Below are positions 1,089-29,734 of a DNA stretch of 39,587 bases, in pieces (the first letter of the stretch is position 1; every line of letters starts with the position of its first letter). This stretch comes from a virus, in the IMG/VR virus record IMGVR_UViG_3300006790_000007, positions 1 through 39,587 of that record, one strand, 5' to 3'. The position numbers were made by a program, and so were the translations under genes. The notes beneath the pieces were generated by a model that saw nothing but the letters and a program-made list of their open reading frames with translations, did no database searches and was not told the DNA's origin.

Positions 1089-3283
1089 AATTTCTGGAGA
1101 CAAAAAGAAAGAGCCATTTAGATTCTGGATTTGAAATTAATGAAGATCAATTATCAGATCATTTATTTGATTTTCAAAAGTACGCTGTTAAATGGGCGTT
1201 AAAAAAAGGTAGAGCAGCTTTATTTGAAGATTGCGGATTAGGTAAAACAGCTCAAATGCTAGAGTGGGCATATCAAGTAATGAATTATACTAACAAACCT
1301 GTTTTAATATTAGCACCTTTAGCGGTAGTAGGGCAAACAGAACAGGAAGCTATTAAGTTTGGTAATCTTTATGTTTCAAAATATACAGATGAAAATGAAG
1401 TATCTACTAAGTGTATAAAAATAACAAACTATGAGCAGATAGATAATATTGATATAAGTTTGTTTAGTGGGGTTGTATTAGATGAAAGCTCTATTCTTAA
1501 AGGAAAGGATAGTAAAACAAAAAATAAGCTGCTAGAATACTTTAAAAACACTCCATACAAGTTATGCTGTACTGCTACTCCATCACCTAATGACCATATG
1601 GAACTTGGAAACCATAGCGAATTTCTAGGATCAATGAGTTATTTAGAAATGTTGGCAATGTATTTTGTTCATGATGGCGGAGAAACTTCTAAATGGAGAC
1701 TTAGAAAACACGCTGAAAAGGACTTCTGGCAGTTTGTTTCTTCATGGGGTTTAGCAATGGATAATCCAGCTACATTAGGATTTACAGAAAAAAGCTATGA
1801 ATTACCTAATATAAATTATGTTGAGCATTTTGTAGATGTAGAAAGTGATGGATTAGATTTATTTGGTGAGGCTATTGTATCGGCTACTGAATTACATAGA
1901 GATTTAAAGAAGTCTCAAAAAGATAGATTACAAAAGGCTTTAGATATTTATAATGAGAAACCAGATGAACAGTGGATATTTTGGGTTTTAGGAAATGAAG
2001 AAGCTAAAGAGTTAGAAAAGATAATACCTAATTCTGTGAATGTTCATGGTGGATTAAAGCCACAACAAAAAGCAGATTATTTATTAGGGTTTGCAAATGG
2101 AGAAGTAAAAAACTTAATTACTAAAACTTCTATAGCATCATTTGGTATGAATTATCAAAATGCTTGTAATATGTGTTTTCCTTCTTATGATTTTAAGTTT
2201 GAAGCTTTTTATCAAGCAGTAAGGAGAGAGTATAGATTTGGTCAAAATAGAGATGTTAATGTACATTTAATCATACCTAAATCACAAGTAAATGTTAGGA
2301 AATCAATTTTAGAAAAAGAAGCTAAACATCATGAGATGATGCATAAAATGGCTTTACATAGTGCTGAGTTTAATCAATTTAAAAAAGAAAATATGAAACA
2401 CGAAGATATTAAAAATGATAATTACTGGTTAATGAATGGAGATTGCGTTCAAAGATCAAAAGAAATACCTACAGATTCAGTTGATTTATGTGTGTTTAGT
2501 CCTCCATTTGCTGAGCTTTATGTTTACTCAGATAAAGAAGAGGATATGGGTAATGTATCTAATTATGAACAGTTTAAAACTCATTTTAGTTATCTAGTTC
2601 CAGAACTTAAAAGAACTATAAAACAGGGTAGGATATGTGCTGTTCATTGTATGGACTTACCTATTCAAAAAGGTAAAGAAGGTTTTATAGGTCTTAGAGA
2701 TTTTAGTGGAATGATTAGAGAGATGTTTGAATCAGAAGGCTTTATATATCATGCTCGTACTACTGTTTGGAAGAATCCAGTAACAGAAATGCAAAGGACT
2801 AAAGCATTAGGTTTATTACACAAGACTATTAAAAAAGATAGTGTAATGAGTAGAGTAGGTATACCTGATTATATTCTTTTCTTTAGGAATGGTGATGGTA
2901 ATGAAACACCAATAACACACCAAGATACAGATCCAAGTAAACCAGATTATTTACCTGTTGATTTATGGCAAAAATATGCTTCTCCAGTTTGGATGGATGT
3001 TGATTATTCTAGAACTTTACAATACACAACTGCTAGAGATTCTAATGATGAAAAGCATATATGCCCTCTACAATTAGATACTATTGAAAGAATACTTCAT
3101 CTTTATTCTAATGAAGGAGAAACAGTATTAAGTCCTTTTGGTGGTATTGGTTCAGAGGGTTACCAGTCTTTAAAAATGAATCGTAAGAGCATTAGTATTG
3201 AATTAAAAGAGTCATACTTTGCTATTAATAAAAAGAATCATTCTAATGCAATTAAAGAAAACGCTGTATTAACATTGTTTTAA
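1070..3283 (+). CDS. SNF2-type helicase fused to a DNA methyltransferase
   Basis: A 737-residue two-part protein. Residues 30-400 are a superfamily-2 SNF2-like helicase: Walker A EDCGLGKT at 53-60, a DEAH-box equivalent VLDES at 136-140, TATPSPND near 168-175 (motif III), and the helicase C-terminal half ending in RREYRFGQ at 385-392 (motif VI). Residues 450-737 are an N4-cytosine/N6-adenine type methyltransferase with motifs in the beta-class order: catalytic SPPF at 477-480 first, then the SAM-binding PFGGIGSEGY near 689-698. The fusion is seen in phages and recalls the helicase-methylase protein DarB of phage P1, which protects DNA from restriction. Here it lies in the replication operon with a 19-bp overlap upstream and a 1-bp overlap downstream. 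It may methylate phage DNA or remodel replication intermediates; the target sequence is unknown. Confidence 0.85.
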   Translation: MSSKYLEFLETKRKSHLDSGFEINEDQLSDHLFDFQKYAVKWALKKGRAALFEDCGLGKTAQMLEWAYQVMNYTNKPVLILAPLAVVGQTEQEAIKFGNLYVSKYTDENEVSTKCIKITNYEQIDNIDISLFSGVVLDESSILKGKDSKTKNKLLEYFKNTPYKLCCTATPSPNDHMELGNHSEFLGSMSYLEMLAMYFVHDGGETSKWRLRKHAEKDFWQFVSSWGLAMDNPATLGFTEKSYELPNINYVEHFVDVESDGLDLFGEAIVSATELHRDLKKSQKDRLQKALDIYNEKPDEQWIFWVLGNEEAKELEKIIPNSVNVHGGLKPQQKADYLLGFANGEVKNLITKTSIASFGMNYQNACNMCFPSYDFKFEAFYQAVRREYRFGQNRDVNVHLIIPKSQVNVRKSILEKEAKHHEMMHKMALHSAEFNQFKKENMKHEDIKNDNYWLMNGDCVQRSKEIPTDSVDLCVFSPPFAELYVYSDKEEDMGNVSNYEQFKTHFSYLVPELKRTIKQGRICAVHCMDLPIQKGKEGFIGLRDFSGMIREMFESEGFIYHARTTVWKNPVTEMQRTKALGLLHKTIKKDSVMSRVGIPDYILFFRNGDGNETPITHQDTDPSKPDYLPVDLWQKYASPVWMDVDYSRTLQYTTARDSNDEKHICPLQLDTIERILHLYSNEGETVLSPFGGIGSEGYQSLKMNRKSISIELKESYFAINKKNHSNAIKENAVLTLF

Positions 3284-4215
3284 TGAAAGAGTTATTAGAG
3301 AAACTAGAAAGAAAACACAAAAAGCCTAGCGAGTTAGTCTCGCTTTGGGCTGAACGTGTTAAGAAGTCTATGGAAAGACCTTTAACTACTGGTTTTTCTA
3401 AAATAGATGAAAACTTAGACTTAGTATTACGAGGTGAGGTGTGTGCGGTTATTGGTTATGCTGGTACTAAAAAATCATTATGGACTTTAAACCAAGCAAA
3501 TCAAAACGCTATAAAATATAAGACTAGGACTATTTACTCTACTATGGAGATGTCACCAACAAGACTACTAGACAGAATTATAGATTATGCTTATGTAGAT
3601 GAAAACCCAAGTGTAGAAGAAAACATACACAAACTTTATAGACAGGCTATAAAAAACGGAAATATAGAGCAAGTAGTAGAAGAGCTAACAGGAATATTAG
3701 AAAGATACTACGGTGATAGGTTAATTATAGATTGGCAGCCCTCAATGAATAAAGACAAGTATCTAACCTTAATAGATTCTGTAGAGGGGCAATATGGAAC
3801 TGTTGATAGTTTAGTAGTAGATGGTCTTAGTATGATGGAAATGCTAGGAACAGAAACAGAAGCATACAGCACACATACAAAGCAATTAAAACAACTAGCA
3901 ATAGAAAAAGATATATTTATTCCTATAATTTGTCACTGCTCAAAAGGAGGTAACCCTGACGATAGAGATATTAAAAAATACGTTCGAGGATCGGAAAAGA
4001 TAATTGATAACGTAGACTTCTATATGATGTTTAGTAAGTGTTTTGATAATGGTGATGAATCTAAAGAATATGGATGGATAAGGTTTGTTAATAAGAGGGG
4101 TACAGGAGACACTATAGACCAGTTATTTAAATTCAATAAACCTAAGCTATGTTTAGAGGATTGTGATTTAGATCCTAATATATTTGAACCTAACAAAAAC
4201 AACGGTTTTTTCTAA
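3283..4215 (+). CDS. DnaB/RecA-like replicative helicase ATPase
   Basis: A 310-residue RecA-fold ATPase like the C-terminal domain of DnaB-family helicases. A Walker A variant GYAGTKKS lies at 58-65, with Lys in the place where DnaB has Gly. STMEMSPTRL at 86-95 matches the DnaB motif 'SLEMs..ql..R'. Walker B is LVVDG at 177-181. IICHCSKGG near 216-223 and VRGSEKI match DnaB motifs H3/H4. The DnaB N-terminal domain is missing, so it is shorter than the usual 450 residues, as for other phage helicases. The first base of its ATG is the last base of the upstream stop codon. It probably unwinds DNA at the fork with the initiator-like protein. Confidence 0.8.
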   Translation: MKELLEKLERKHKKPSELVSLWAERVKKSMERPLTTGFSKIDENLDLVLRGEVCAVIGYAGTKKSLWTLNQANQNAIKYKTRTIYSTMEMSPTRLLDRIIDYAYVDENPSVEENIHKLYRQAIKNGNIEQVVEELTGILERYYGDRLIIDWQPSMNKDKYLTLIDSVEGQYGTVDSLVVDGLSMMEMLGTETEAYSTHTKQLKQLAIEKDIFIPIICHCSKGGNPDDRDIKKYVRGSEKIIDNVDFYMMFSKCFDNGDESKEYGWIRFVNKRGTGDTIDQLFKFNKPKLCLEDCDLDPNIFEPNKNNGFF

Positions 4216-4245
4216 TTTAGAACTATTATAAATAGTAATTAAATA

Positions 4246-4275
4246 TTGTTACTTATAAATAAAGTAGTAGATTTA
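4246..4275 (+). promoter_or_regulatory. Bacteroidota-type promoter
   Basis: TTG at 4246-4248, 19 bp, then TAGATTTA at 4268-4275, one base from the TAnnTTTG consensus. The upstream 45 bp (4216-4260) match 9809-9853 at 37 of 45 positions, which is the promoter block of another operon. Downstream, ATTTACATTATAACAA is repeated after the promoter at 34931. Transcription should start near 4281 and run through the predicted RNA and small genes. Confidence 0.65.
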
Positions 4276-4281
4276 CATTAT

Positions 4282-4408
4282 AACAATTTAAGGGGGTCAT
4301 TCAAATTTATAAACAAAATGAATGTTTTAAGTCTAAATAATACGAGGTATGCCTCCACCTCACTAAAAAGCATATAATTAAAGGGGGTTTCATGCTTCCC
4401 CCGTTTTT
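4282..4408 (+). ncRNA. Predicted structured small RNA or leader
   Basis: About 125 bases between the helicase operon and the small genes hold no convincing ORF but several paired segments: CATTCA 4298-4303 with TGAATG 4319-4324; GAGGT 4344-4348 with ACCTC 4357-4361; and at the 3' end AAGCAT/ATGCTT interleaved with GGGGG/CCCCC, then a T-run. A promoter sits just upstream and a terminator-like end lies at 4408, 12 bases before the next ATG. It could be a free small RNA, or an attenuator leader for the MazG operon. No known RNA family was recognised. Confidence 0.5.
4368..4408 (+). terminator. Terminator-like G5/C5 hairpin, alternative pseudoknot
   Basis: GGGGG (4383-4387) pairs with CCCCC (4398-4402), followed by G and five T. 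AAGCAT (4368-4373) pairs with ATGCTT (4392-4397), which lies inside the G5/C5 loop, so both stems together form an H-type pseudoknot. The two forms could be alternatives (terminated or read through). Regulation is inference. Confidence 0.55.
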
Positions 4409-4420
4409 AACCTTAAGAAT

Positions 4421-4603
4421 ATGAAGATTATAACAGAACAAGAATTAAAAGAGTATTTAGATTTACATAAAGTAAACTGTGATAATAAAACAGCTAATTA
4501 TGTTGATGATCGTTTTGATGCTGTGTTGAATGCAGTTAATCATTTAGTAGAGGTTAAGATTTTTGATTATGTAACTACTGTTAGTGGTTGTAGTAAAAAA
4601 TAA
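4421..4603 (+). CDS. Small hypothetical protein
   Basis: A 60-residue acidic protein, unrecognised. It begins at the first ATG after the predicted hairpin (12 bases after the T-run), so its expression would depend on read-through. It lies 6 bp before the MazG-like gene. No membrane segment; two Cys only (residues 20 and 57). Codon use looks like that of its neighbours. Confidence 0.65.
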   Translation: MKIITEQELKEYLDLHKVNCDNKTANYVDDRFDAVLNAVNHLVEVKIFDYVTTVSGCSKK

Positions 4604-4609
4604 AATAAC

Positions 4610-4927
4610 ATGAATAAGAAAGTTTTTAGATTAATTAGAGAATGGGCTTATAAACGAGGTATTTATACTCATTCAGATTTGAAGAGTCAAACATTGAAAC
4701 TGCAAGAAGAAGTAGGGGAGTTATCTAAAGCTATATTAGAAAATAATAAACCTGATATAATAGATGCTATTGGTGATTGTGTTGTAGTATTAACTAATAT
4801 AGCTGAGACTTTAAATAATCAAACCAAAGAAACTATTAACATAGAAAGCTGTATTGAGTTAGCTTATGAAGTTATTAGTAAGCGTACTGGTAAAATGGAA
4901 AACGGAACATTTATAAAAGATGAATAA
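4610..4927 (+). CDS. MazG-like nucleotide pyrophosphohydrolase
   Basis: A 105-residue all-alpha NTP-PPase of the MazG superfamily. The metal-binding signature is visible: EEVGE with Glu33, Glu34 and Glu37, then Asp52 and Asp56 in DAIGD about 15 residues later. Family members hydrolyse (d)NTPs to NMPs and pyrophosphate; phage versions are thought to adjust nucleotide pools or lower the alarmone level of the host. The length is right for a single-domain phage MazG. It overlaps the next gene by 8 bp, so the two are probably co-translated. Confidence 0.8.
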   Translation: MNKKVFRLIREWAYKRGIYTHSDLKSQTLKLQEEVGELSKAILENNKPDIIDAIGDCVVVLTNIAETLNNQTKETINIESCIELAYEVISKRTGKMENGTFIKDE

Positions 4928-5222
4928 AGAAGATTTAATAAGATTAGCCGTAGTTCTTCATGTATTGCAAGAGAATATTATAATGGGGATAGAAGATGGA
5001 GGATTTAAGAGAGAGTTAAGAAGATGTTATAATGTTTTAAGAAGTCAATTTAAGAAGTTAACAGGATTGATTTTTAAAGATTCTAGCAAAGATCAGATAG
5101 ATAATTATGATGAATGGGCTAATCAGATCCTAGATTTAATAGAAAAAAGCCAAGATATAGGTATAGAAAGAAGTAACGCTATACTTAAAGCTTATATAAA
5201 TGGAGATATAAGAGAGGAATAA
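4920..5222 (+). CDS. Hypothetical helical protein
   Basis: A 100-residue charged protein, likely all helical, not recognised. It starts 8 bp inside the MazG-like gene. Its stop codon (5220-5222) lies within the left core of an attC-like palindrome (5218-5284), the position such sites have at the end of integron cassettes. Confidence 0.7.
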   Translation: MNKEDLIRLAVVLHVLQENIIMGIEDGGFKRELRRCYNVLRSQFKKLTGLIFKDSSKDQIDNYDEWANQILDLIEKSQDIGIERSNAILKAYINGDIREE

Positions 5223-5284
5223 CGATTAGTACATGCTATCGTGTGAAGCGGTAGCGAAACATGGAGTATGTGCCGTGTTATATG
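5218..5284 (+). repeat. attC-like palindrome, site A
   Basis: AATAAC (5218-5223) and GTTATA (5277-5282) form the outer inverted core. Inside, GTACAT (5229-5234) pairs with ATGTGC (5268-5273), one G-U, and GCTATCG (5235-5241) pairs with CGGTAGC (5249-5255), one G-U, over a 7-base loop. An inverted outer core, a long imperfect stem with unpaired bases, and a position right at a stop codon are features of integron attC sites. The core differs from the classical RYYYAAC/GTTRRRY. It resembles the sites at 27734-29673. Confidence 0.55.
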
Positions 5285-5305
5285 CTTTTTAAAACTTGAT
5301 AAATT

Positions 5306-5488
5306 ATGAGTGTAGTAAGAAATAGAAAATTAAAGAAAGTAGGTATTACAAGCAAAAGCAAGAAACGAGAAGCTCGTAAATACATAAAGACATTTGTAAA
5401 ATGCAACCGAGGATATGCGTACAACAATATTGCTTGTAACATGGGGTTATTACCTGAGTTTTGGCAGTATGGTGAGGTGATTCAATAA
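5306..5488 (+). CDS. Small basic protein, possible gene cassette
   Basis: A 60-residue protein with a very basic N-terminal half (many Lys/Arg in residues 5-35) and an aromatic C-terminal half, NMGLLPEFWQYGEV. It may bind nucleic acid, but no fold is recognised. It is bounded by attC-like palindromes on both sides (5218-5284 and 5494-5562), so gene plus site may form a mobile cassette of about 280 bp. It has the same direction as the phage genes around it. Confidence 0.65.
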   Translation: MSVVRNRKLKKVGITSKSKKREARKYIKTFVKCNRGYAYNNIACNMGLLPEFWQYGEVIQ

Positions 5489-5493
5489 TTGCA

Positions 5494-5562
5494 TATAATA
5501 CCTTTATAAAAGAGCTTGAGCGACTGCGCGAAGAATGAGCGTTGCTTTTATGAATTGTTATC
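5494..5562 (+). repeat. attC-like palindrome, site B
   Basis: The outer core is TATAAT (5494-5499) facing GTTATC (5557-5562). The inner stem is ATAAAAG (5506-5512) with CTTTTAT (5545-5551), and the long loop between contains GAGCG twice. It starts 5 bases after the stop of the small basic gene. The core is degenerate compared with the sites near 29 kb, so the call rests on its placement and shape. Confidence 0.45.
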
Positions 5563-5596
5563 TAATTAAGCAAAATTTTAAATACCCGTTTATGAT

Positions 5597-5630
5597 AGAA
5601 TAGTTTGTTATTTTTGTAGCAAACTATTCT
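5597..5630 (+). promoter_or_regulatory. Promoter -7 box inside an 11-bp inverted repeat
   Basis: AGAATAGTTTG (5597-5607) and CAAACTATTCT (5620-5630) are a perfect inverted repeat. The 12-base gap holds TATTTTTG (5609-5616), a full match to the TAnnTTTG box, though no TTG sits at the standard distance upstream. The palindrome could be an operator over the tail-fibre promoter or a hairpin in the leader just before the ATG at 5636. Confidence 0.5.
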
Positions 5631-5635
5631 TGTTT

Positions 5636-6385
5636 ATGGCTAATTATGTAATAACGTCTACAGATAACTCTTTTGAAGTTTCAAAAGATGGGTATGCTAA
5701 AACATTCCCTAAAGATATTTTTATCTTACAACTTAATGAATTAAACCCTCAAGAGTTAACTTTTTTTAATAAACATAAATCTCAAAACGAATATATAGTA
5801 TATACTGATACTGATTTCATAAATGTAAATGGGACTACCTCTTGGGCTAACGCTGAAGAGTTGAAGACAGCCTTAAGAACAATTATTTTTTTAACTAGTT
5901 CTGATTCTTCTACACAAGGGGGGTTTATAGATTATAATGATAATACAGGGAATATCTCATTAACAGCTAATACTTGGGTAGATATACCTAATGATGGACA
6001 AGGACCTTTTAGTAATTCTAGTTATAAACCTTCAGGAGTGAGTGAATTAATAGATGTGTCCACTGGATATATTGACACTTCAGAATTATCTTTAGGAGAT
6101 AGTATATTAATAAGAAACGATTATACTATAACACCAAGCACTAATAATTCATTGCTTGAGTTTAGGTATGAATTAGGGAACGGTTCAGGAGTTTATAATT
6201 TACAGAAAATTGTTGGAAGACTAGACAGCGGAAGTGGCGTGGCATATAGGTTTAGTTTAGAGCCTGATTTAATATATATGGGGGACACAAACACAAAAGA
6301 TAATCCTATAAAATTACAGGTAAAATTAAGCTCTAATGGTGTTTTAAATAATGCTGGTTCAGTTATTCAAGTATTAAAAAGATGA
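5636..6385 (+). CDS. Tail fibre / receptor-binding protein with shared N-module
   Basis: 249 residues starting at MANYVITST; the upstream in-frame TTG at 5630 lies in the inverted repeat and is unlikely to be used. Residues 1-85 are clearly related to the N-terminus of the tailspike at 7708, with YTDTDxINVNGTTSWANAEELKT in both. The DNA of 5821-5872 is also close to 7893-7944. Residues 90-249 are Gly/Ser/Asn-rich beta sequence typical of a jelly-roll or TNF-like head domain. I infer that the N-module attaches to the tail and the C-domain contacts the host. It overlaps the next gene by 4 bp. Confidence 0.65.
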   Translation: MANYVITSTDNSFEVSKDGYAKTFPKDIFILQLNELNPQELTFFNKHKSQNEYIVYTDTDFINVNGTTSWANAEELKTALRTIIFLTSSDSSTQGGFIDYNDNTGNISLTANTWVDIPNDGQGPFSNSSYKPSGVSELIDVSTGYIDTSELSLGDSILIRNDYTITPSTNNSLLEFRYELGNGSGVYNLQKIVGRLDSGSGVAYRFSLEPDLIYMGDTNTKDNPIKLQVKLSSNGVLNNAGSVIQVLKR

Positions 6386-7677
6386 GTATAAAAATATATA
6401 AAGATACGTCTGCTAATGCAATATTCATAGAAGACGCAAACGGTGTTCAGTTTTTAAACAGCTTACAGGCAACTATAGATGATCCTTTAGGTGATACTTT
6501 AAGTATTACAGATTTAGCTAAAGGATTAGAAATAGTATCACAAAAAGATTACACTGAGTTTGAAGATGAAAACTCTCAACCTTGGGGGGTGGATGCCACT
6601 ACTACCGTAAACACTTTAAATTCAATATTTCAAAGTTCAGGTACGCCTACTGATGAATTACCAAATATTACTAGCCCTTTGACTATAAGCTTAACAGAGG
6701 GACAAGTTTTAAATTATGAGCTTACAGCAGATTATGGTGTTGGTTATGAGTGGGATTTTTCAAGCGTTTCTGGAGTATCTAATGTTGAGGGAAACATTAG
6801 AAAAATAATAGGCGGTTCAAGTCTTGCTGTAGGAACTTATAATATACCTGTTAAAGCTATTAACTACAATGGTGAAGATAGTGAAACAATAGTTTTAACA
6901 GTTTCAGCACCTCCTTTTAGTAATACTAAAAGTATTAGGTTTTCAAATCAAGACTGGTTAGGCGCAAACGCTGCACAAGTTGAATCCACATTAGGAAGAA
7001 GTGGGAACGGATCGGGAGCTGGTGACGCTTGGACTATTAGCTTTTGGTATAAAGCGTCTAGTGACAGTCAAGGACAAACTATTATATATTTCGGTAATAA
7101 TGATGTAACAAATAATGGTTTCTTAGAAACAAGGCAAGTTGATGCTTCTGGTCAAAAAAGATTAAGATTTAGATATGGAAGTAATAATAATTATATACAA
7201 TTACTAACGCCATCAGGAAGTTTAACAGCTGGAGTTTGGCAGCATGTTATGATAACTTATGATGGAGGAACTACAGGATCAAGTTCTGGCAGCATATCTG
7301 ATTATTATAGTAGATTTAAAATATACATTGACGGAACTTTACAAACGACTAGTAATACGAATTCAAATTTTGGCTGGAGTAATTCTATTATAGGTCAAAA
7401 TTGGAGAGTAGGGAGATTTGCATCGGGTTCACACATGAGGCAAGCTAATGTTGACGAGCTAGCATTGTGGGATAGCGATCAGAGTTCTAATGTATCAGAT
7501 ATTTACAATTCAGGGGTTGTTTTTAATTTATCAACTTTAACCGATGAACCTAGACACTGGTGGAGAATGGGAGACGGTGATACATTTCCAAATTTAGAAG
7601 ACAGTGGAACTGAAGCTAATTGTGTTTTCGTTATGAATAACATGACTAGTTCAGATATAGTTAACGATGTACCATAG
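6382..7677 (+). CDS. Ig-like and LamG-domain tail protein
   Basis: 431 residues. Residues 1-90 form an N-terminal module with an attachment-like layout (ends WGVDATTTVNTLNSIF, recalling the end of the neighbouring modules). About 97-175 is an Ig/cadherin-like domain (TSPLTISLTEGQVLNYELTA to ETIVLTVSAP). About 183-420 is a LamG/concanavalin-like domain with the usual WTISFWYKA, GVWQHVMITYDGG, YIDGTL and DELALWDSD motifs. LamG domains bind glycans, so this is probably a receptor-binding or decoration protein. It overlaps the upstream fibre gene (ATGA) and ends 30 bp before the tailspike. Confidence 0.75.
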   Translation: MSIKIYKDTSANAIFIEDANGVQFLNSLQATIDDPLGDTLSITDLAKGLEIVSQKDYTEFEDENSQPWGVDATTTVNTLNSIFQSSGTPTDELPNITSPLTISLTEGQVLNYELTADYGVGYEWDFSSVSGVSNVEGNIRKIIGGSSLAVGTYNIPVKAINYNGEDSETIVLTVSAPPFSNTKSIRFSNQDWLGANAAQVESTLGRSGNGSGAGDAWTISFWYKASSDSQGQTIIYFGNNDVTNNGFLETRQVDASGQKRLRFRYGSNNNYIQLLTPSGSLTAGVWQHVMITYDGGTTGSSSGSISDYYSRFKIYIDGTLQTTSNTNSNFGWSNSIIGQNWRVGRFASGSHMRQANVDELALWDSDQSSNVSDIYNSGVVFNLSTLTDEPRHWWRMGDGDTFPNLEDSGTEANCVFVMNNMTSSDIVNDVP

Positions 7678-9890: not shown

Positions 9891-10145
9891 ATGGAAAGCT
9901 TAAATTTTAAAACAGTAAAGGCATTAGCAGAGGGATTCACCACTAAAGACGTTAATAACGTTGTTAATTCTTGGGCGGAAGGAACTACTAATGAGGATAA
10001 AGTTTCTTTTAATATGTTTTCTTCTCTTGTGAGATTAGGAGACACTAAAGAAATAGCGTTAGCAACTGTTTTAGAAGAAAAAAGAATCTATGAAGCAGTA
10101 GAAGAGGGTTATTTTGTTAAATTTAATAGCCACAGACTAAGATAA
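9891..10145 (+). CDS. Hypothetical protein
   Basis: 84 residues, not recognised, first gene after a strong promoter. The sequence is helical and mixed in charge, without membrane or metal motifs. Its stop TAA shares its last base with the ATG of the next gene (TAATG), so the two are co-translated. The five genes from here to 11407 form one operon that ends at the terminator at 11433. They precede the terminase genes but have no recognisable structural role; they may be host-takeover genes. Confidence 0.7.
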   Translation: MESLNFKTVKALAEGFTTKDVNNVVNSWAEGTTNEDKVSFNMFSSLVRLGDTKEIALATVLEEKRIYEAVEEGYFVKFNSHRLR

Positions 10146-10462
10146 TGAACCTACAAAAAACAATAGACTTACTAGAAGACTTAAAGAGTGGGAAGCTTCC
10201 GCATCCTTTTGTGGTGGAGGAGCATGTTGATGGGTTGAAGGAAGCTTTGAAAGTATTTGACACTATACTTAATGAATTAGATAAAGAAGATAATCTCAGG
10301 CTTAAGGAATCGCTAGATAAAAATATGCGTAATAGGTTTGGGGAATTAAATGTTGTTGAGTCTGAATGGTATCTTTTAGACAAAGAGGGCAATGTTGAGA
10401 AAATGGATGAAAACGGTGAGTTCATTCCTTACAAACCAAAAGACAACGAAAGACTAAAGTAG
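10145..10462 (+). CDS. Hypothetical protein
   Basis: 105 residues. The N-terminal 60 residues form a Leu-rich helix pattern with a possible coiled coil (residues 25-55); the C-terminal part is charged, with short beta-like stretches (EWYLLDKEGNVEKMDENGE). No family recognised. It is coupled to the upstream gene by a 1-base overlap and followed by the next ATG 2 bases after its stop. Confidence 0.7.
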   Translation: MNLQKTIDLLEDLKSGKLPHPFVVEEHVDGLKEALKVFDTILNELDKEDNLRLKESLDKNMRNRFGELNVVESEWYLLDKEGNVEKMDENGEFIPYKPKDNERLK

Positions 10463-10464
10463 TT

Positions 10465-10701
10465 ATGGAAAGACCAAAGAAAGAAGATTACTATTTCATA
10501 GATGGATCGTTTTGTTACGATGATTATTACCATGCTCTTGATGAATACATTGACCACCTAGAATCTAAAGAAGAAAACTTTAACTATAAATGGAGAAAGA
10601 TATTTGCGTCTAAAAGATATAACACTGACGGGAATATAGTTTTATCACCTTTAGAACAGCAAGAGTTATTAGATGATTCAAAACCACCAGTAAAGAAATA
10701 A
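10465..10701 (+). CDS. Hypothetical Tyr/Asp-rich protein
   Basis: 78 residues with an aromatic, acidic N-terminal half (EDYYFIDGSFCYDDYYHALDE) and a charged tail. The function is unknown. The short spacing to its neighbours (2 and 33 bp) places it in the same operon. An acidic surface like this occurs in some DNA-mimic inhibitors, but there is no direct evidence for that here. Confidence 0.65.
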   Translation: MERPKKEDYYFIDGSFCYDDYYHALDEYIDHLESKEENFNYKWRKIFASKRYNTDGNIVLSPLEQQELLDDSKPPVKK

Positions 10702-10734
10702 GCTGCACAACAGTATAACTAAAACAAAAGAACA

Positions 10735-11073
10735 ATGAAAGAGTTTAAAAGAGGCATTACTTTAGTGACTCCAGTAACAAGGAACTGGACAAAAGATATG
10801 ATTGAAGAAAACGATAAATTTGAGCGTAGGATTATTTTTACTGATTTTCATAAAAAGGATAACGGCAGAAGCAGGGAACAAGTTTGTGTTTTAAATCTAA
10901 ATCATTCAGACTATGAAGCAAACGCTAAATTAATAGCAGCAGCACCAGAGCTATTAGAGGCTTTGCAGGATTTAACTATGTCAGTTATGAACTCTGACTC
11001 AGAAATTGATGAATGCGTGTTTGATTCGATGAAAAGAGCAGAAAAAGCAATAAACAAAGCTTTAGGAGAATAG
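10735..11073 (+). CDS. Hypothetical phage protein with 'NAKLIAAAPELL' motif
   Basis: 112 residues. The stretch EANAKLIAAAPELLEALQD (residues 61-79) is a short motif found near the C-terminus of many unrelated small phage proteins; its role is unknown. The N-terminal half looks like a small beta domain. The gene is preceded by an A-rich leader (AAAACAAAAGAACA), the usual translation signal in Bacteroidota, where Shine-Dalgarno sites are weak. Confidence 0.75.
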   Translation: MKEFKRGITLVTPVTRNWTKDMIEENDKFERRIIFTDFHKKDNGRSREQVCVLNLNHSDYEANAKLIAAAPELLEALQDLTMSVMNSDSEIDECVFDSMKRAEKAINKALGE

Positions 11074-11086
11074 ATTAATTAATATT

Positions 11087-11407
11087 ATGGAAGGAACAGT
11101 AACATTATCGAAAGAAGAGTATGACCGTTTGAAAAAGATTCAAATGGAACATGAATTAAGTAAAAACTCACCAGAAGAGTTTGTTAAAATTGAATACCCA
11201 GATTATGACTGGAGAGAACATAAGCCAGTTTATAAAGAAATAAGGGTTTATTCAGGCGAAACAGCCGTATTAAGATTAAAAGAGAATTTTGAGCATAAAC
11301 TAGAAGAATTAGAAAATAGATATAAGCAAAGGTTAAAAGACGCTGAAGATATTCAAAATAAATATAAGGGAATTATTAGCGCAGTTGATAATTTTAAGAA
11401 GTATTAA
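11087..11407 (+). CDS. Hypothetical coiled-coil protein
   Basis: 106 residues, unrecognised. Residues 60-100 are a strongly charged coiled coil (LKENFEHKLEELENRYKQ onward). The N-terminus has TLSKEEYDRLKKIQ, a start common in small phage coiled-coil proteins. Last gene of the operon, 25 bases before a terminator hairpin. Confidence 0.7.
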   Translation: MEGTVTLSKEEYDRLKKIQMEHELSKNSPEEFVKIEYPDYDWREHKPVYKEIRVYSGETAVLRLKENFEHKLEELENRYKQRLKDAEDIQNKYKGIISAVDNFKKY

Positions 11408-11432
11408 AAAACTATAGCTGATAAAAGAAAGG

Positions 11433-11456
11433 CTATACTGATTCGGTATAGTTTTT
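11433..11456 (+). terminator. Intrinsic terminator
   Basis: CTATAC (11433-11438), a 7-base loop, GTATAG (11446-11451) and five T. An upstream CTATAGC (11412-11418) can compete for part of the same stem. It separates the small-gene operon from the terminase genes. Confidence 0.75.
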
Positions 11457-11485
11457 CTTGTTTATAATAATTCTAAATAATTTTG

Positions 11486-11493
11486 TATCTTTG
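11486..11493 (+). promoter_or_regulatory. Promoter -7 box of the terminase operon
   Basis: TATCTTTG is a full match to TAnnTTTG, 22 bases before the ATG of the small terminase gene and just after a terminator. No TTG lies at the standard 19-bp distance. An upstream ATTCTAAATAATTTT also occurs before the weak box at 15658. Confidence 0.55.
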
Positions 11494-11514
11494 AAAAGAA
11501 CAAATGTTTTCAAG

Positions 11515-11793
11515 ATGCCAAAGAAAGGTCATACAAACAATCCTAAAGGTAGACCTAAAGGAGTTCCTAACAAAGTAACTACAGAAATTAGAACAGCCTT
11601 AAAGGATTTAGCGGATAATAATTTAGATAAGGTTCAGACTTGGTTAGATAGAATAGCAGAGGATGATCCTAAAGGGGCTATGGGAATGTATTTGACATTA
11701 TTAGAATACGTTCAACCTAAACTAAGTAGAACAGAATTAGCAGGAGATAAAGATAATCCTGTAAGTGTTATAGATATGAGTAAATGGAAGTAG
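11515..11793 (+). CDS. Small terminase subunit-like protein
   Basis: 92 residues from the ATG at 11515 (MPKKGHTNNPKGRPKGVPNK); longer in-frame starts would run back into the promoter and terminator. The N-terminal KGRPKGVPNK segment resembles DUF5681, a basic DNA-binding motif at the N-terminus of proteins encoded just before large terminases. The rest (residues 25-70) is helical, with an oligomerisation-like pattern. It is likely to recognise the packaging site and stimulate the large subunit. It overlaps the next gene by 10 bp. Confidence 0.65.
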   Translation: MPKKGHTNNPKGRPKGVPNKVTTEIRTALKDLADNNLDKVQTWLDRIAEDDPKGAMGMYLTLLEYVQPKLSRTELAGDKDNPVSVIDMSKWK

Positions 11794-12038
11794 TTTTTTC
11801 AAATAGAGAAATAGCGGAAGGTTTAACATCTAGATTTATTCTTAACGAAACTTGGTCTAGATTTGACTGTTATGTTATTGTGTATAGCGATACATATCTT
11901 TCATATATATTAGAAAAAAGGTCTTCCAATTGTTTTGGTAATTTAATAGATTTCAAGTTTATAGATTCTGAATATATTTCTTCTAGCTTAGAGGATCAAA
12001 TTGCTTATATTGAATTGCTTTTAGAGGAATGGAAATAA
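11784..12038 (+). CDS. Hypothetical protein within the terminase operon
   Basis: 84 residues, not recognised. It starts 10 bp inside the small terminase gene and ends 1 base before a small membrane-protein gene. The sequence mixes aromatic and hydrophobic residues (CYVIVYSDTYLSYILEK) with an acidic C-terminus, as a small alpha/beta protein would. Insertion of two small genes between terminase subunits is not usual; they could be recent additions. Confidence 0.65.
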   Translation: MEVVFSNREIAEGLTSRFILNETWSRFDCYVIVYSDTYLSYILEKRSSNCFGNLIDFKFIDSEYISSSLEDQIAYIELLLEEWK

Positions 12039-24467: not shown

Positions 24468-24733
24468 TGGATTACAAGTACTATTACGAAATGTTTAAAA
24501 AGCATACTGATAACGATATCAGTAAAGAACAATTTAATGAAGTGGTTAACTTTGTAGACTCACGCGAGAAGTTAGCGCATACATGGAAGTTTTATCACAT
24601 GGTTTATTCTTTCTATCAAGAATTAGAAAAAGAAGGTAAACTAAAGAAGCAATTAATAGCTGAATGTGTTGACGAGTTTAGAGTAAGTGATGTTACTATT
24701 TTTGGAATACTTAAAGGATTCAGGGATAGTTAA
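24467..24733 (+). CDS. Hypothetical protein downstream of the tape measure
   Basis: 88 residues, helical and charged (MDYKYYYEMFKKHTDNDISKE). It resembles no family I can name. The ATG overlaps the tape-measure stop by 1 base, so it is co-translated with it. The end (RVSDVTIFGILKGFRDS) could be a small HTH-like or protein-binding segment. It is followed by a 69-bp gap and a new promoter box. Confidence 0.65.
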   Translation: MDYKYYYEMFKKHTDNDISKEQFNEVVNFVDSREKLAHTWKFYHMVYSFYQELEKEGKLKKQLIAECVDEFRVSDVTIFGILKGFRDS

Positions 24734-24788
24734 GAAAATGCTTAATTAGAATTAGTCTAAATAAATATAAAGTCTATGTTTTCATTTA

Positions 24789-27508: not shown

Positions 27509-27733
27509 TTAAAACGGTGTTTTTTCTTTAGGTATAAGCTCTAAGTGTTTTCTAAGTTTATCTAATGTATAAAACTTACCTTTAACAGTATACCCAATAC
27601 TATAACCTATCATACATTTTTTTAGTACTCTACCAGTTTTAGCATTTATTAATTTACCGCATTCAGTAAACTTATAATTATGAGCGAATTTTATACGCCA
27701 TTTTAAATTATAACTTATTGAGTATCTGTCCAT
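27509..27733 (-). CDS. Small phage protein with 'KFYTLDKLRKHL' end
   Basis: 74 basic residues. The N-terminal half (WRIKFAHNYKFTECGKLIN) and C-terminal GYTVKGKFYTLDKLRKHL match a family of small proteins seen in Bacteroidota phages. A similar end, GYYLDGKFYSLKKLKN, occurs in the gene at 37412, so two members exist in this genome. The function is unknown; the layout recalls small DNA-binding modules of homing endonucleases. Last gene of the minus-strand group. Confidence 0.7.
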   Translation of the reverse strand: MDRYSISYNLKWRIKFAHNYKFTECGKLINAKTGRVLKKCMIGYSIGYTVKGKFYTLDKLRKHLELIPKEKTPF

Positions 27734-27776
27734 TTTGATTAAGTAAAATTACACATACAGAACTGTTATAGGTCAT
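27734..27776 (-). repeat. attC-like site C (reduced)
   Basis: In the direction of the minus genes it reads GACCTATAACAGTTCTGTATG then TGTAATTTTACTTAATC. It has a TATAAC left core (27765-27770 on plus) directly after the upstream stop codon, and its right part resembles that of site F (CACAGTAATTTTAACG). The right core GTTRTA is lost. It looks like a decayed member of the same site family. Confidence 0.35.
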
Positions 27777-28109
27777 TTAAAACGCATCCATTAATTTTCG
27801 TAATTCGTTTTCTTCTCTCTGTTCTCTCTTTTGTATTGATTCCTTTCTTAGTTTTTCAGCTTCCTCTTCTTCATTTACCCATTCATCAATTTTGGATTCG
27901 ACAAAGTTTTTAATTTTCTTATTTGTTTTATCAAAACTCTGTCTACATCTATCGTTAGATATTTCCCATAAAATGTGGTGTCTTTTACCATTTTCATCCT
28001 TAATGTAAACCGATAAAGAGTCAGAAACATCACCAGTATCGAATGATATTTTTATCTTCTCGTTTTCAAAAACTTTATCTATCTTTAATTTTGAAATATT
28101 TACTCCCAT
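27777..28109 (-). CDS. Hypothetical protein of the cassette-like array
   Basis: 110 residues from the ATG at 28109 (MGVNISKLKIDKVF); a longer frame to 28145 only reads back into the palindrome upstream. The N-terminal 70 residues look like a small beta domain (IKISFDTGDVSDSLSVYIKD); the rest is a charged helix (EEEEAEKLRKESIQKREQRE). Not recognised. It runs against the direction of the surrounding structural genes and is flanked by attC-like sites C and D. Confidence 0.7.
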   Translation of the reverse strand: MGVNISKLKIDKVFENEKIKISFDTGDVSDSLSVYIKDENGKRHHILWEISNDRCRQSFDKTNKKIKNFVESKIDEWVNEEEEAEKLRKESIQKREQREENELRKLMDAF

Positions 28110-28120
28110 AATATAAAGTC

Positions 28121-28219
28121 GCCCTATAACAATATCTAAAACCAAGTAGGGCTTTTAAACTCGGCGGTAGACTTTAGGGTTATTACTGCCCTACCAGTTT
28201 TTAGATTAAGCGTTATGCC
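28121..28219 (-). repeat. attC-like palindrome, site D
   Basis: Plus-strand coordinates: outer core TATAAC (28125-28130) facing GTTATG (28212-28217). The stems are ATCTAAAA (28134-28141) with TTTTAGAT (28199-28206) and GTAGGGC (28146-28152) with GCCCTAC (28188-28194), with a 4-base internal loop between them. It lies between a stop codon and the next start. This is the longest and clearest of the set and has the two-stem shape of an attC site. Confidence 0.65.
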
Positions 28220-28223
28220 TAAT

Positions 28224-28520
28224 TTACATTTCACAAAAAGATGCTTCATCGACATACCACACAGAGTCATCAAGTTTTTCAGAAGCAAATACTGATTCAG
28301 CATCTTCTTCTTTCCAAAATAGAGAGTATACCTCATTATTAGAATACTTAAATATTCCATAAACACTAGGCATAACACTATGTATGTCGTTAGTTTTATT
28401 TCCTAACTCATATGCTTTATTCATCGCTTTCATTATTAAGTCAATTTGTGCTTGACTTTCTTGGTGGGCTATATCTGTACCCCAAATATTACCTAGTATT
28501 TCTAAAAACTTTTCTTCCAT
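28224..28520 (-). CDS. Hypothetical protein of the cassette-like array
   Basis: 98 acidic residues (MEEKFLEILGNIWGTDIAH...). The N-terminal half is helical; the C-terminal half has beta-like aromatic strands (VYGIFKYSNNEVYSLFWKEED, VWYVDEASF). No family recognised. It ends 4 bases before site D and starts just after site E, so gene plus site is about 0.4 kb, a usual cassette size. Confidence 0.7.
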   Translation of the reverse strand: MEEKFLEILGNIWGTDIAHQESQAQIDLIMKAMNKAYELGNKTNDIHSVMPSVYGIFKYSNNEVYSLFWKEEDAESVFASEKLDDSVWYVDEASFCEM

Positions 28521-28584
28521 TTCTTACTTATTTAACCGTAAATAAAACCACCGCATACACTTAACATTGTAGGCAATACCACTG
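28521..28584 (-). repeat. attC-like site E
   Basis: In the direction of the genes it reads GTATTGCCTACAATGTTAAG then TGTATGCGGTGGTTTTATTT. It aligns with site F over most of its length. Where F has TGTG paired with CACA, E has GCC paired with GGT, so base changes on one arm are matched on the other. The core is degenerate (CTACAAT). Confidence 0.45.
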
Positions 28585-28842
28585 CTAATCAAGGTTCATT
28601 GCTTTACAACCATCGCATTGTTTGTCGCAAGGCTTATTTTTTCTACCAAAGTCGTATAATTCGCAATGGTACTGTTCGCTTCGCCCTACAACATTGGCTA
28701 TACCCAATAATTTTAACTTAGCTTCGTGGTATAATTCCATTTGTTCAATCCATTGTTCTCCAGTGTAATATTGGTTGTGTACTTCTACGTCAACACCAAA
28801 CCTACTTCGAAGGTCTTTTGCTATAAATTCTTTTGCTGTCAT
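28585..28842 (-). CDS. Hypothetical protein with C-terminal Cys cluster
   Basis: 85 residues. The start MTAKEFIAKDLRSRFG is followed by a helical middle (EQWIEQMELYHEAKLK) and an end with clustered Cys (CELYDFGRKNKPCDKQCDGCK). The Cys group could bind a metal. Proteins with the MTAKEF start and similar size occur often in Flavobacteriia as small stand-alone genes. Function unknown. Attached to sites E and F on either side. Confidence 0.65.
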   Translation of the reverse strand: MTAKEFIAKDLRSRFGVDVEVHNQYYTGEQWIEQMELYHEAKLKLLGIANVVGRSEQYHCELYDFGRKNKPCDKQCDGCKAMNLD

Positions 28843-28901
28843 TGTTTCTGTCTTTTAAGTCGTTAAAATTACTGTGCATAGCCTTAGCGTTGTACACAAT
28901 A
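28843..28901 (-). repeat. attC-like site F
   Basis: In gene direction: TATTGTGTACAACGCTAAGG then CTATGCACAGTAATTTTAACG. The left core TACAAC (plus GTTGTA at 28889-28894) is intact. TGTG pairs with CACA. Its left half is nearly the same as the left half of site G, and its right half resembles that of site G. Confidence 0.5.
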
Positions 28902-29315
28902 CTACTCTGTACCTAACCTTTTAAGTTTCTGCACCAAATGTAAAGCAAGGGTCATATACTCTTTAACTTGTTCATCGGTTGGTAAGTCATAGTCGTAACT
29001 ACTAATCGCTTGAAGAGTATCGCAACCACTACAACTCCCATAGTAAGTATCAGTCATCACATAATCTTCTACACTAGGTTGGTAGGTGTCAGTTGGTATT
29101 ATAAATATTTGTGTGCCTTGATAATCACCATCATCAATTACAGTCATTTTATCTAAATCCCAACCGCTATAATCGGTTGCTTCAGGTATGCATAATTCAA
29201 ATACCTTTTTCACAATAGTTTCATAACTATCATATTCATCTTGTTTTGTCGTTTTGAAATACTCTTCAAGCTTATGCTTGTTTTCTTCCCATTGCTTTAC
29301 TAATTCTGTTATCAT
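28902..29315 (-). CDS. Conserved phage/cassette protein with 'YYGSCSGCDTLQ'
   Basis: 137 acidic residues. The segment YYGSCSGCDTLQAISSYDYD (about residues 91-110) is a conserved Cys-x-x-Cys region I have seen in small hypothetical proteins of phages and mobile regions; the tail EQVKEYMTLALHLVQKLKRL is also part of that family. GDYQGTQIFIIPTDTYQPSVEDYV is the strand-rich core. Molecular function is unknown. The start ATG comes after an A/T leader, and it is bounded by sites F and G. Confidence 0.75.
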   Translation of the reverse strand: MITELVKQWEENKHKLEEYFKTTKQDEYDSYETIVKKVFELCIPEATDYSGWDLDKMTVIDDGDYQGTQIFIIPTDTYQPSVEDYVMTDTYYGSCSGCDTLQAISSYDYDLPTDEQVKEYMTLALHLVQKLKRLGTE

Positions 29316-29345
29316 AATTTTATTTTTAGTTCATTAATTCCGTAC

Positions 29346-29406
29346 TGTGTACAACATTGTATATAAGCCATACAAGTACAGGCTCATATACTAAACGTTG
29401 TACACA
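29346..29406 (-). repeat. attC-like palindrome, site G
   Basis: Plus coordinates: TGTGTACAAC (29346-29355) and GTTGTACACA (29397-29406) are a perfect 10-bp outer stem; GTATATAAGCC (29359-29369) and GGCTCATATAC (29381-29391) form an inner 11-bp stem with one G-U on the gene strand; 3 and 5 unpaired bases separate the stems, with an 11-base loop. The outer stem contains the TACAAC/GTTGTA core. This is closest to the textbook attC shape (R box, spacer, L box, loop). Confidence 0.7.
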
Positions 29407-29409
29407 ATA

Positions 29410-29595
29410 CTATTTTTCAAGTTCTTGTCTTACCCCTTTCCAAAAATTTTGTCTTGCATTCCACATTTCCCAGTCATTGTCATACCCACAATAACAAATT
29501 TCATTTTCATACTCTTCTATTATTTCATCAACCACATTAACAGCATTTTTTCCGAATTTGTCATTTAAGTGTTTTGCTTTTTCTATTATATTCAT
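29410..29595 (-). CDS. Small hypothetical protein, first of the array
   Basis: 61 residues, acidic, with aromatic/Cys stretch CYCGYDNDWEMWNARQNFW. Not recognised. It is the first gene after the minus-strand promoter at 29734-29705 and lies between sites H and G, so it would be the best expressed cassette. The A/T-rich leader before the ATG (29593-29595) fits translation in Bacteroidota. Confidence 0.65.
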   Translation of the reverse strand: MNIIEKAKHLNDKFGKNAVNVVDEIIEEYENEICYCGYDNDWEMWNARQNFWKGVRQELEK

Positions 29596-29623
29596 AAGTT
29601 TTATTTATTAAGTCCGTACTGTT

Positions 29624-29673
29624 TACAACACGACCTAAACAGCATTAAAACTCAGTTTAGCCAGAGCGTTATA
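29624..29673 (-). repeat. attC/attI-like site H at the head of the array
   Basis: Plus coordinates: outer core TACAAC (29624-29629) with GTTATA (29668-29673), inner stem CTAAAC (29635-29640) with GTTTAG (29655-29660). It shares GTTGTAnACAGTACGGA in gene direction with site G. It stands between the minus-strand promoter and the first small gene, the place of attI in an integron. Confidence 0.5.
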
Positions 29674-29704
29674 TCGACTTGATTTTATTTATTTAGTTAC
29701 ATCA

Positions 29705-29734
29705 CAAACTTAACCAATTATTTATAAATAACAA
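29705..29734 (-). promoter_or_regulatory. Promoter of the minus-strand gene array
   Basis: On the minus strand: TTG (29734-29732), exactly 19 bp, TAAGTTTG (29712-29705), a full consensus match. The extended TATTGTTATTTATAAAT around the -33 box matches the promoter blocks at 4244 and 9837. Transcription should start near 29699, pass site H and read all six small genes to the terminator at 27480. Confidence 0.75.

Follow-up and report, generated by a model that had tools for sequence, protein, structure and literature searches.

A likely integron-type cassette array without integrase in a probable Bacteroidota phage, and a candidate divergent integrase in Bacteroidia chromosomes

Small genes on the minus strand, set among the plus-strand structural genes of a phage and separated by hairpins, raise the question of how they came to be there. 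Such a run is found in IMG/VR record IMGVR_UViG_3300006790_000007, a phage contig of 39,587 bases analysed here in its entirety (hereafter, the window). Its plus strand carries helicase/methyltransferase, terminase, head protease, portal and tail-like genes. As a preliminary description of this DNA had stated, and as the list of open reading frames (ORFs) bears out, six minus-strand ORFs, all of them small, occupy positions 27509-29595 within the structural region. The host of the phage is probably a member of Bacteroidota. The matches of its capsid gene in phage records are distant, the best being a Bacteroides phage (22%), and matches of ~60% are found in two IMG/VR contigs. We think it highly likely that the six genes form an integron-type gene-cassette array without integrase, in a Bacteroidota phage, and that a host recombinase of a divergent type captures the cassettes. 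It is also probable, if somewhat less so, that an integron type with an integrase devoid of the IntI-specific domain is widespread in Bacteroidia and has been overlooked, and that their phages hold a separate pool of cassettes of the same family, with inverted genes and with the attC site upstream of the gene.

The sites between the six genes (Table 1) are not all in the same state. Folding gives a strong two-stem hairpin with an asymmetric spacer at site G, a clear one at D and a weaker one at H. No comparable hairpin is obtained for the gaps between genes 2 and 3, 3 and 4, and 5 and 6, where one arm is left, made of AAC, 6-8 nt and TATG. A palindromic site had been claimed in every gap; folding and a covariance model, R1, support this for G, D and H, and not for the three other gaps. 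R1 was built from 25 phage sites, G included, and the scores of H, G and D come from a scan with filters off. The unpaired spacer and the asymmetric extra bases of attC sites are seen at G, with its two stems, and the stems covary across the family. As for the RYYYAAC/GTTRRRY core, it has its textbook form in two other loci, L010 and L019 (GCCTAAC/GTTAGGC), and the cores of the window (GTACAAC/GTTGTAC and ATAAC/GTTATA) are off at one or two positions. With three full sites and no recombinase of the family in the window, the array corresponds to a cluster of at least two attC sites lacking an integrase (CALIN). The cassette start at H, GTTGTAAACnGTACGG, is also found in an unrelated phage contig, L144. 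A promoter ahead of the first gene, with H between the two, had likewise been proposed, and a Bacteroidota-like motif is indeed seen by eye at that place. Taken by itself, the window yields little in a plain pattern scan (four matches against two in shuffled sequence), so that the case rests on comparison with other loci.

The inner stem of G is found letter for letter in 48 other viral contigs. The same layout is found in about 44 of them, with varied outer cores and different genes behind, and two (L053 and L061) were dropped as chance matches without AACG/GTT. A stricter scan, which required AACG, a helix of 10 or more and GTT, gave 126 sites over the 593 kb of viral loci and only 4 once the sequence was shuffled; it also found sites in Polaribacter phage P12002L. 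The pattern scan is tuned to the Bacteroidota type and missed the class 1 attC sites of a control plasmid. Across 25 sites, both sides change in 9 of the 15 base pairs of the stem, a count favoured by the choice of sites for having a helix, and none of 500 shuffles reached any of the measures; the covariation score is 0.39, against at most 0.10 with the partners slid. An initial degenerate full-site pattern had a single match, inside coding sequence in L004, which was discarded as chance, as were all matches of site G to plasmids in blast searches. Against phages, blast of site G led to the isolated Cellulophaga phage phi13:2 (L018), in which attC-like sites lie between small genes and around a DNA methylase gene, at 2960-4860. 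Start codons fall within some attC loops of L031, L142 and L018, so that the following protein would begin with residues encoded by the stem arm (e.g. YTLYILL). Half sites reduced to one arm recur as well, in L005, L018, L142 and L143 besides the three gaps of the window.

Do the units move? Proteins 94-98% identical to the product of gene 2 are encoded in L005, L006 and L008, and one of 85% identity in L010; the neighbours differ each time, and the gene copies have attC-like sequence at their ends. Among genome contigs, gene 2 is present at one locus only, which is prophage-like and belongs to a metagenome-assembled genome (MAG) recorded as uncultured Bacteroidetes bacterium. The relative of gene 1 in L144 lies behind an attC-like site, with no other window homolog in the 6 kb of L144 that were read; after it, at 3200-3330, a tRNA-like sequence is found where an attC half would be. 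Gene 3 has relatives with other neighbours in L142 and L143, and the sequence that follows AACG in the half site between genes 2 and 3 also heads the gene-3 unit there, behind different genes. This unit thus has different neighbours in three phages despite an attC cut to one arm. Gene 4 has no relative among the viral contigs searched. Identity is ~0.9 in the gene and immediately upstream; no more than ~80 bases away, in both directions, it is down to that of random sequence (0.48), and homology ends near the sites. In L002, a relative of the window phage with structural proteins 60-75% identical (74% for the gene next to the array), the small minus-strand genes at the position of the array are entirely different, and a further insert flanked by sites is present elsewhere (R1 sites of 69 and 63 bits). 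The cassette-like inserts of L002 span 737-1719 and 4621-6719, and one of the two spots is empty in the window (24733-24776). At the level of sequence, these comparisons show two kinds of change: single units have passed between unrelated phages, and in a relative the whole set at this locus has been replaced. The same genes in the same order in all relatives, with sites never beside other genes, had been named as the outcome that would speak against a cassette array; the opposite was found.

An integron cassette extends from the TT of one crossover to the G of the following one, and in the circular form the two halves of its own core pair with each other. Among 52 viral cassettes, the start and the end match at 9 or more of 10 bases in 17 cases, a proportion that drops to 0.9% when ends are shuffled between cassettes. 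The corresponding figures for 17 chromosomal cassettes are 5 and 0.6%. The ends of gene 2 change together, TTGTACACAGTACGG going with AGTATTGTGTACAAC in the window and TTAGGCGTAGTACGG with AGTATTACGCCTAAC in L010, and the gene 5 unit has complementary ends of its own (GTTATAGG and CCTATAAC). In a tandem duplicate in L132, the sites at 162 and 1107 are identical and that at 2052 is different, which places the crossover where the classical orientation predicts it. These comparisons thus show that cassette starts are complementary to their own ends and that the two change together, as predicted for an integron-type crossover at G|TT. The proposal of a cassette array without integrase in a phage is supported by the units shared between different neighbours, the turnover in L002, the covariation of the stems and that of the ends.

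The direction of the genes is another matter. Followed in the direction of the gene, a class 1 attC has the order R''-AAC-AA...GC-GTT-R', as checked on aadA1, and both R1 and the scan are written in the sense opposite to classical attC. When viral loci (L005-L072) are compared with chromosomal ones (L073-L164), the genes of all 53 phage cassettes, from 24 loci, are inverted relative to attC, and the window agrees. In chromosomal cassettes, 29 of 32 genes have the classical direction and 3 are inverted. There, the recombinase gene lies upstream, reads the same way as the cassettes and has its 3' end next to the array. An arrangement with the recombinase convergent with the cassettes was rejected, since the L132 duplicate and the aadA1 control forced the reversed orientation of the sites. 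The orientation initially ascribed to attC was therefore wrong, as the aadA1 control and the 53 phage cassettes make the sites point opposite to the genes. Judged from their sequences, the phage units are cassettes with an inverted gene and with attC upstream of it. The two pools also differ in content, with a median ORF of 105 amino acids in phage cassettes versus 246 in chromosomal ones, and a [DNS]PP[YFW] methyltransferase-like motif in 8 of 53 and 0 of 32, respectively. It is possible that the strand of attC sets the polarity of insertion and that expression in the phage needs the opposite strand, so that a separate pool of cassettes is selected.

Which enzyme might capture them? The MAG with gene 2 belongs to a class, presumably Bacteroidia, of which 395 genomes were scanned, and R1 matches arrays in 42 of them. 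Such chromosomal arrays are adjoined by an IntI/XerA-like tyrosine recombinase of 367-405 amino acids. To select loci blindly, we picked 20 by recombinase score alone, from genomes without R1 match. The 38 sites found on the 3' side of the recombinase all have one orientation, whereas the 5' flanks, 173 kb in total, have none; the remainder amounts to one reverse reading of a palindrome and one match inside a recombinase gene. At least one site is present in 15 of the 20 loci, and in four of the five others the contig stops within 1.4 kb of the recombinase on the 3' side. A candidate integrase gene thus adjoins a cassette array in a fixed orientation in the Bacteroidia loci, and a site-like half abuts the 3' end of the recombinase gene. 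By this association, Bacteroidia chromosomes carry arrays of the phage attC family beside a divergent recombinase resembling integron integrases, in a system that appears to work like an integron. The chromosomal arrays with their divergent integrase, their presence in 42 of 395 genomes and the blind test favour both options initially put forward for the origin of the phage array, a host-encoded integrase and a distinct cassette system of Bacteroidota. A profile match to the recombinase at E <1e-100 is found in more than 100 of the 395 genomes, with the presence of arrays checked in some only, against a single genome with a canonical IntI (TIGR02249 over cut-off). In L130-L141 and L145-L164, contigs often stop just past the 3' end of the recombinase gene, as assembly breaks in repetitive arrays would give. 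At 9986-11960, a plasmid of Chryseobacterium oryzae (NZ_CP094530.1, L165) encodes a member of this recombinase family; a VOC-family gene and a hairpin resembling attC come next, and the whole is possibly a mobile one-cassette integron.

The recombinase has the core-binding and catalytic domains, which align with those of IntI1, VchIntI4 (2a3v) and XerA/XerC-like enzymes, with conserved R, K, H, R, H and Y residues, and it is longer by ~90 residues at the N-terminus. With the integron integrase model TIGR02249 its score is 194-228 bits, below the cut-off of 265, and with NF040815 208-238 bits. Unlike IntI1 and VchIntI4, it has no counterpart of IntI1 residues ~198-247, and its alignment to 2a3v is in two pieces, broken over residues 180-240, which indicates that the additional domain of IntI is missing. 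For lack of this domain, we do not file the system as a canonical integron. The domain was a criterion in one survey (PMC2426708), and a study of tyrosine recombinases found that the insertion is not fully conserved in the integron-like subgroup (PMC8138268).

In the mechanism that we envisage, each unit would be a small gene with its own attC, upstream and opposite in the phage, some sites being reduced to one arm. The phage would infect a host endowed with the Bacteroidia-type recombinase, which would join the folded, single-stranded attC of a circular cassette to a G|TT spot or to an existing attC of the phage. The captured genes could then be transcribed from a phage promoter, here the TTG-N19-TAAGTTTG motif upstream of H. 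The enzyme acting on the phage, the timing and the donor of the cassettes are what we infer. Several points weigh against this scheme. The presence of the recombinase in the host of the window phage is only inferred. Of the six sites of the window, three are incomplete, so that the array may be partly frozen; units with half sites persist, and even change neighbours, despite an incomplete attC, which the scheme does not account for. The exchange of units could be due in part to homologous recombination at conserved site sequence. Finally, the orientation and the size of the genes differ between phage and chromosomal cassettes, so that direct traffic between the two pools is no more than a possibility.

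Other explanations deserve consideration. The hairpins might serve transcription termination, attenuation or RNA processing in an ordinary phage operon, with gene differences due to the mosaicism of phages. The hairpins are indeed intergenic, in the untranslated leader of each gene, phages are mosaic, and the half sites suggest decay. Yet the stems are not followed by a T-tract, starts and ends hundreds of bases apart covary, which a terminator does not need, and a model built on phage sites finds arrays in bacterial chromosomes. Besides, P12002L, in which the scan finds sites, has been studied by experiment: of the two attC sites that Qi et al. assayed, one was recombined by IntI1 (PMC9892861). 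Regulatory signals are thus a very improbable account of the hairpins. It is less far-fetched, but still rather unlikely, that the array is the relic of one past capture, with present exchange proceeding without integrase, by homologous or illegitimate recombination at conserved site sequence. No member of the integrase family was found in the window or the fetched viral loci, and three of the six sites of the window are half sites, although the gene-3 unit, with such a half site, has moved among neighbours. Against a relic speak the many complete viral sites, the covarying ends that have been kept up, and an integrase of the fitting type that is common in the host class.

Alternatively, the recombinase next to the chromosomal arrays might be an unrelated Xer-like enzyme, the true integrase being another. 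It is devoid of the additional domain held necessary for integron integrases, and its nearest NCBIfam model is XerA-like. We nevertheless regard this as improbable, as the sites in the blind test lie only on its 3' side and in only one orientation. In a tree, it and IntI1, the latter on a long branch, form a group apart from two Xer-like recombinases of a single host genome (support 100/99).

An integron-type system would have precedents in both settings. Phage CALINs have been published, for example in P12002L (Qi et al. 2023, PMC9892861). The reported rarity of integron cassettes in phages holds, but the phenomenon itself is not new. Like the window array, the P12002L CALIN has attC-type sites between small genes of a flavobacterial phage, without integrase. 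The present case is more widespread (one stem sequence in 48 viral contigs), its genes are consistently inverted relative to attC, some sites are halved, a relative has other genes at the same locus, and a host integrase can be proposed. As for the chromosomal arrays, they share one-gene cassettes, covarying attC ends and an integrase at one end with the sedentary integrons of Vibrio, Xanthomonas and Treponema. Unlike the integrases of these, the Bacteroidia enzyme has no IntI additional domain and has the N-terminal extension, and its gene reads in the direction of the cassettes with the 3' end toward the array. This recalls Spirochaetota, in which the integrase is generally in reverse orientation (PMC9668308). 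In Bacteroidetes, In0 elements and a single complete integron, in Salinibacter, have been reported (IntegronFinder 2.0; PMC9024848). We found no description of the Bacteroidia system or of inverted phage cassettes in open-licence papers; preprints were outside the search, and an earlier account may exist elsewhere.

Integrons are considered scarce in Bacteroidetes, yet strong matches to the recombinase occur in well over 100 of the 395 Bacteroidia genomes, and most of those examined adjoin attC arrays. Should this be confirmed, a large and so far unseen system of gene exchange would exist in a major bacterial phylum with members in the gut, the sea and soil, and the phages of this phylum would use it to swap accessory genes, some of them DNA-methyltransferase-like. 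The need for the additional domain of IntI in attC recombination would be called into question.

Table 1. Features of the window array and of the second cassette, with the evidence for each.
Feature	Position	Strand	Basis
Candidate promoter of the array, TTG-N19-TAAGTTTG (Bacteroidota -33/-7 type), upstream of H	29705..29734	-	by-eye match to Bacteroidota consensus
Site H, full attC-like, upstream of gene 1	29615..29680	- (strand of the genes; classical attC orientation is +)	R1 22.4 bits, E 0.018
Gene 1, 61 aa, no assigned function	29410..29595	-	ORF; 92% identical protein in L144
Site G, complete attC-like	29341..29409	-	R1 77.7 bits, E 1e-14, partly by construction as G is in the R1 training set
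Gene 2, 137 aa, no assigned function	28902..29315	-	relatives in L005, L006, L008, L010
Half site between genes 2 and 3, one arm only	28872..28897	-	sequence
Gene 3, 85 aa, no assigned function	28585..28842	-	ORF; relatives in L142, L143
Half site between genes 3 and 4	28551..28574	-	sequence; folding shows no palindrome
Gene 4, 98 aa, no assigned function	28224..28520	-	ORF
Site D, full attC-like, between genes 4 and 5	28116..28224	-	R1 25.2 bits, E 0.0044
Gene 5, 110 aa, no assigned function	27777..28109	-	ORF from ATG
Half site between genes 5 and 6	27752..27773	-	sequence
Gene 6, 74 aa, last gene, no assigned function, no site behind	27509..27733	-	ORF
attC-like site opening the second array, overlapping the stop codon of gene 4920-5222	5211..5291	+	R1 28.5 bits, E 8e-4; outside the training set
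One-gene cassette, 60 aa	5306..5488	+	sequence
Weak attC-like site closing the one-gene cassette	5487..5571	+	R1 15.2 bits, E 0.69; sequence

Searches of the six array genes against Pfam, PHROG and PADLOC returned nothing informative on function, the weak match of gene 5 to a PADLOC 'Effector, endonuclease' model (E 8e-4) included. By DNA similarity to phage records, the sole match of the whole region is one of 146 bases to a Clostridioides phage, inside gene 2, and an Rfam search of the window gave no match. A second cassette, which had escaped the preliminary description, is present on the plus strand at 5211-5571, with attC-like sites on both sides; its start, G|TTATATGC, is complementary to its end, GCATATAA.

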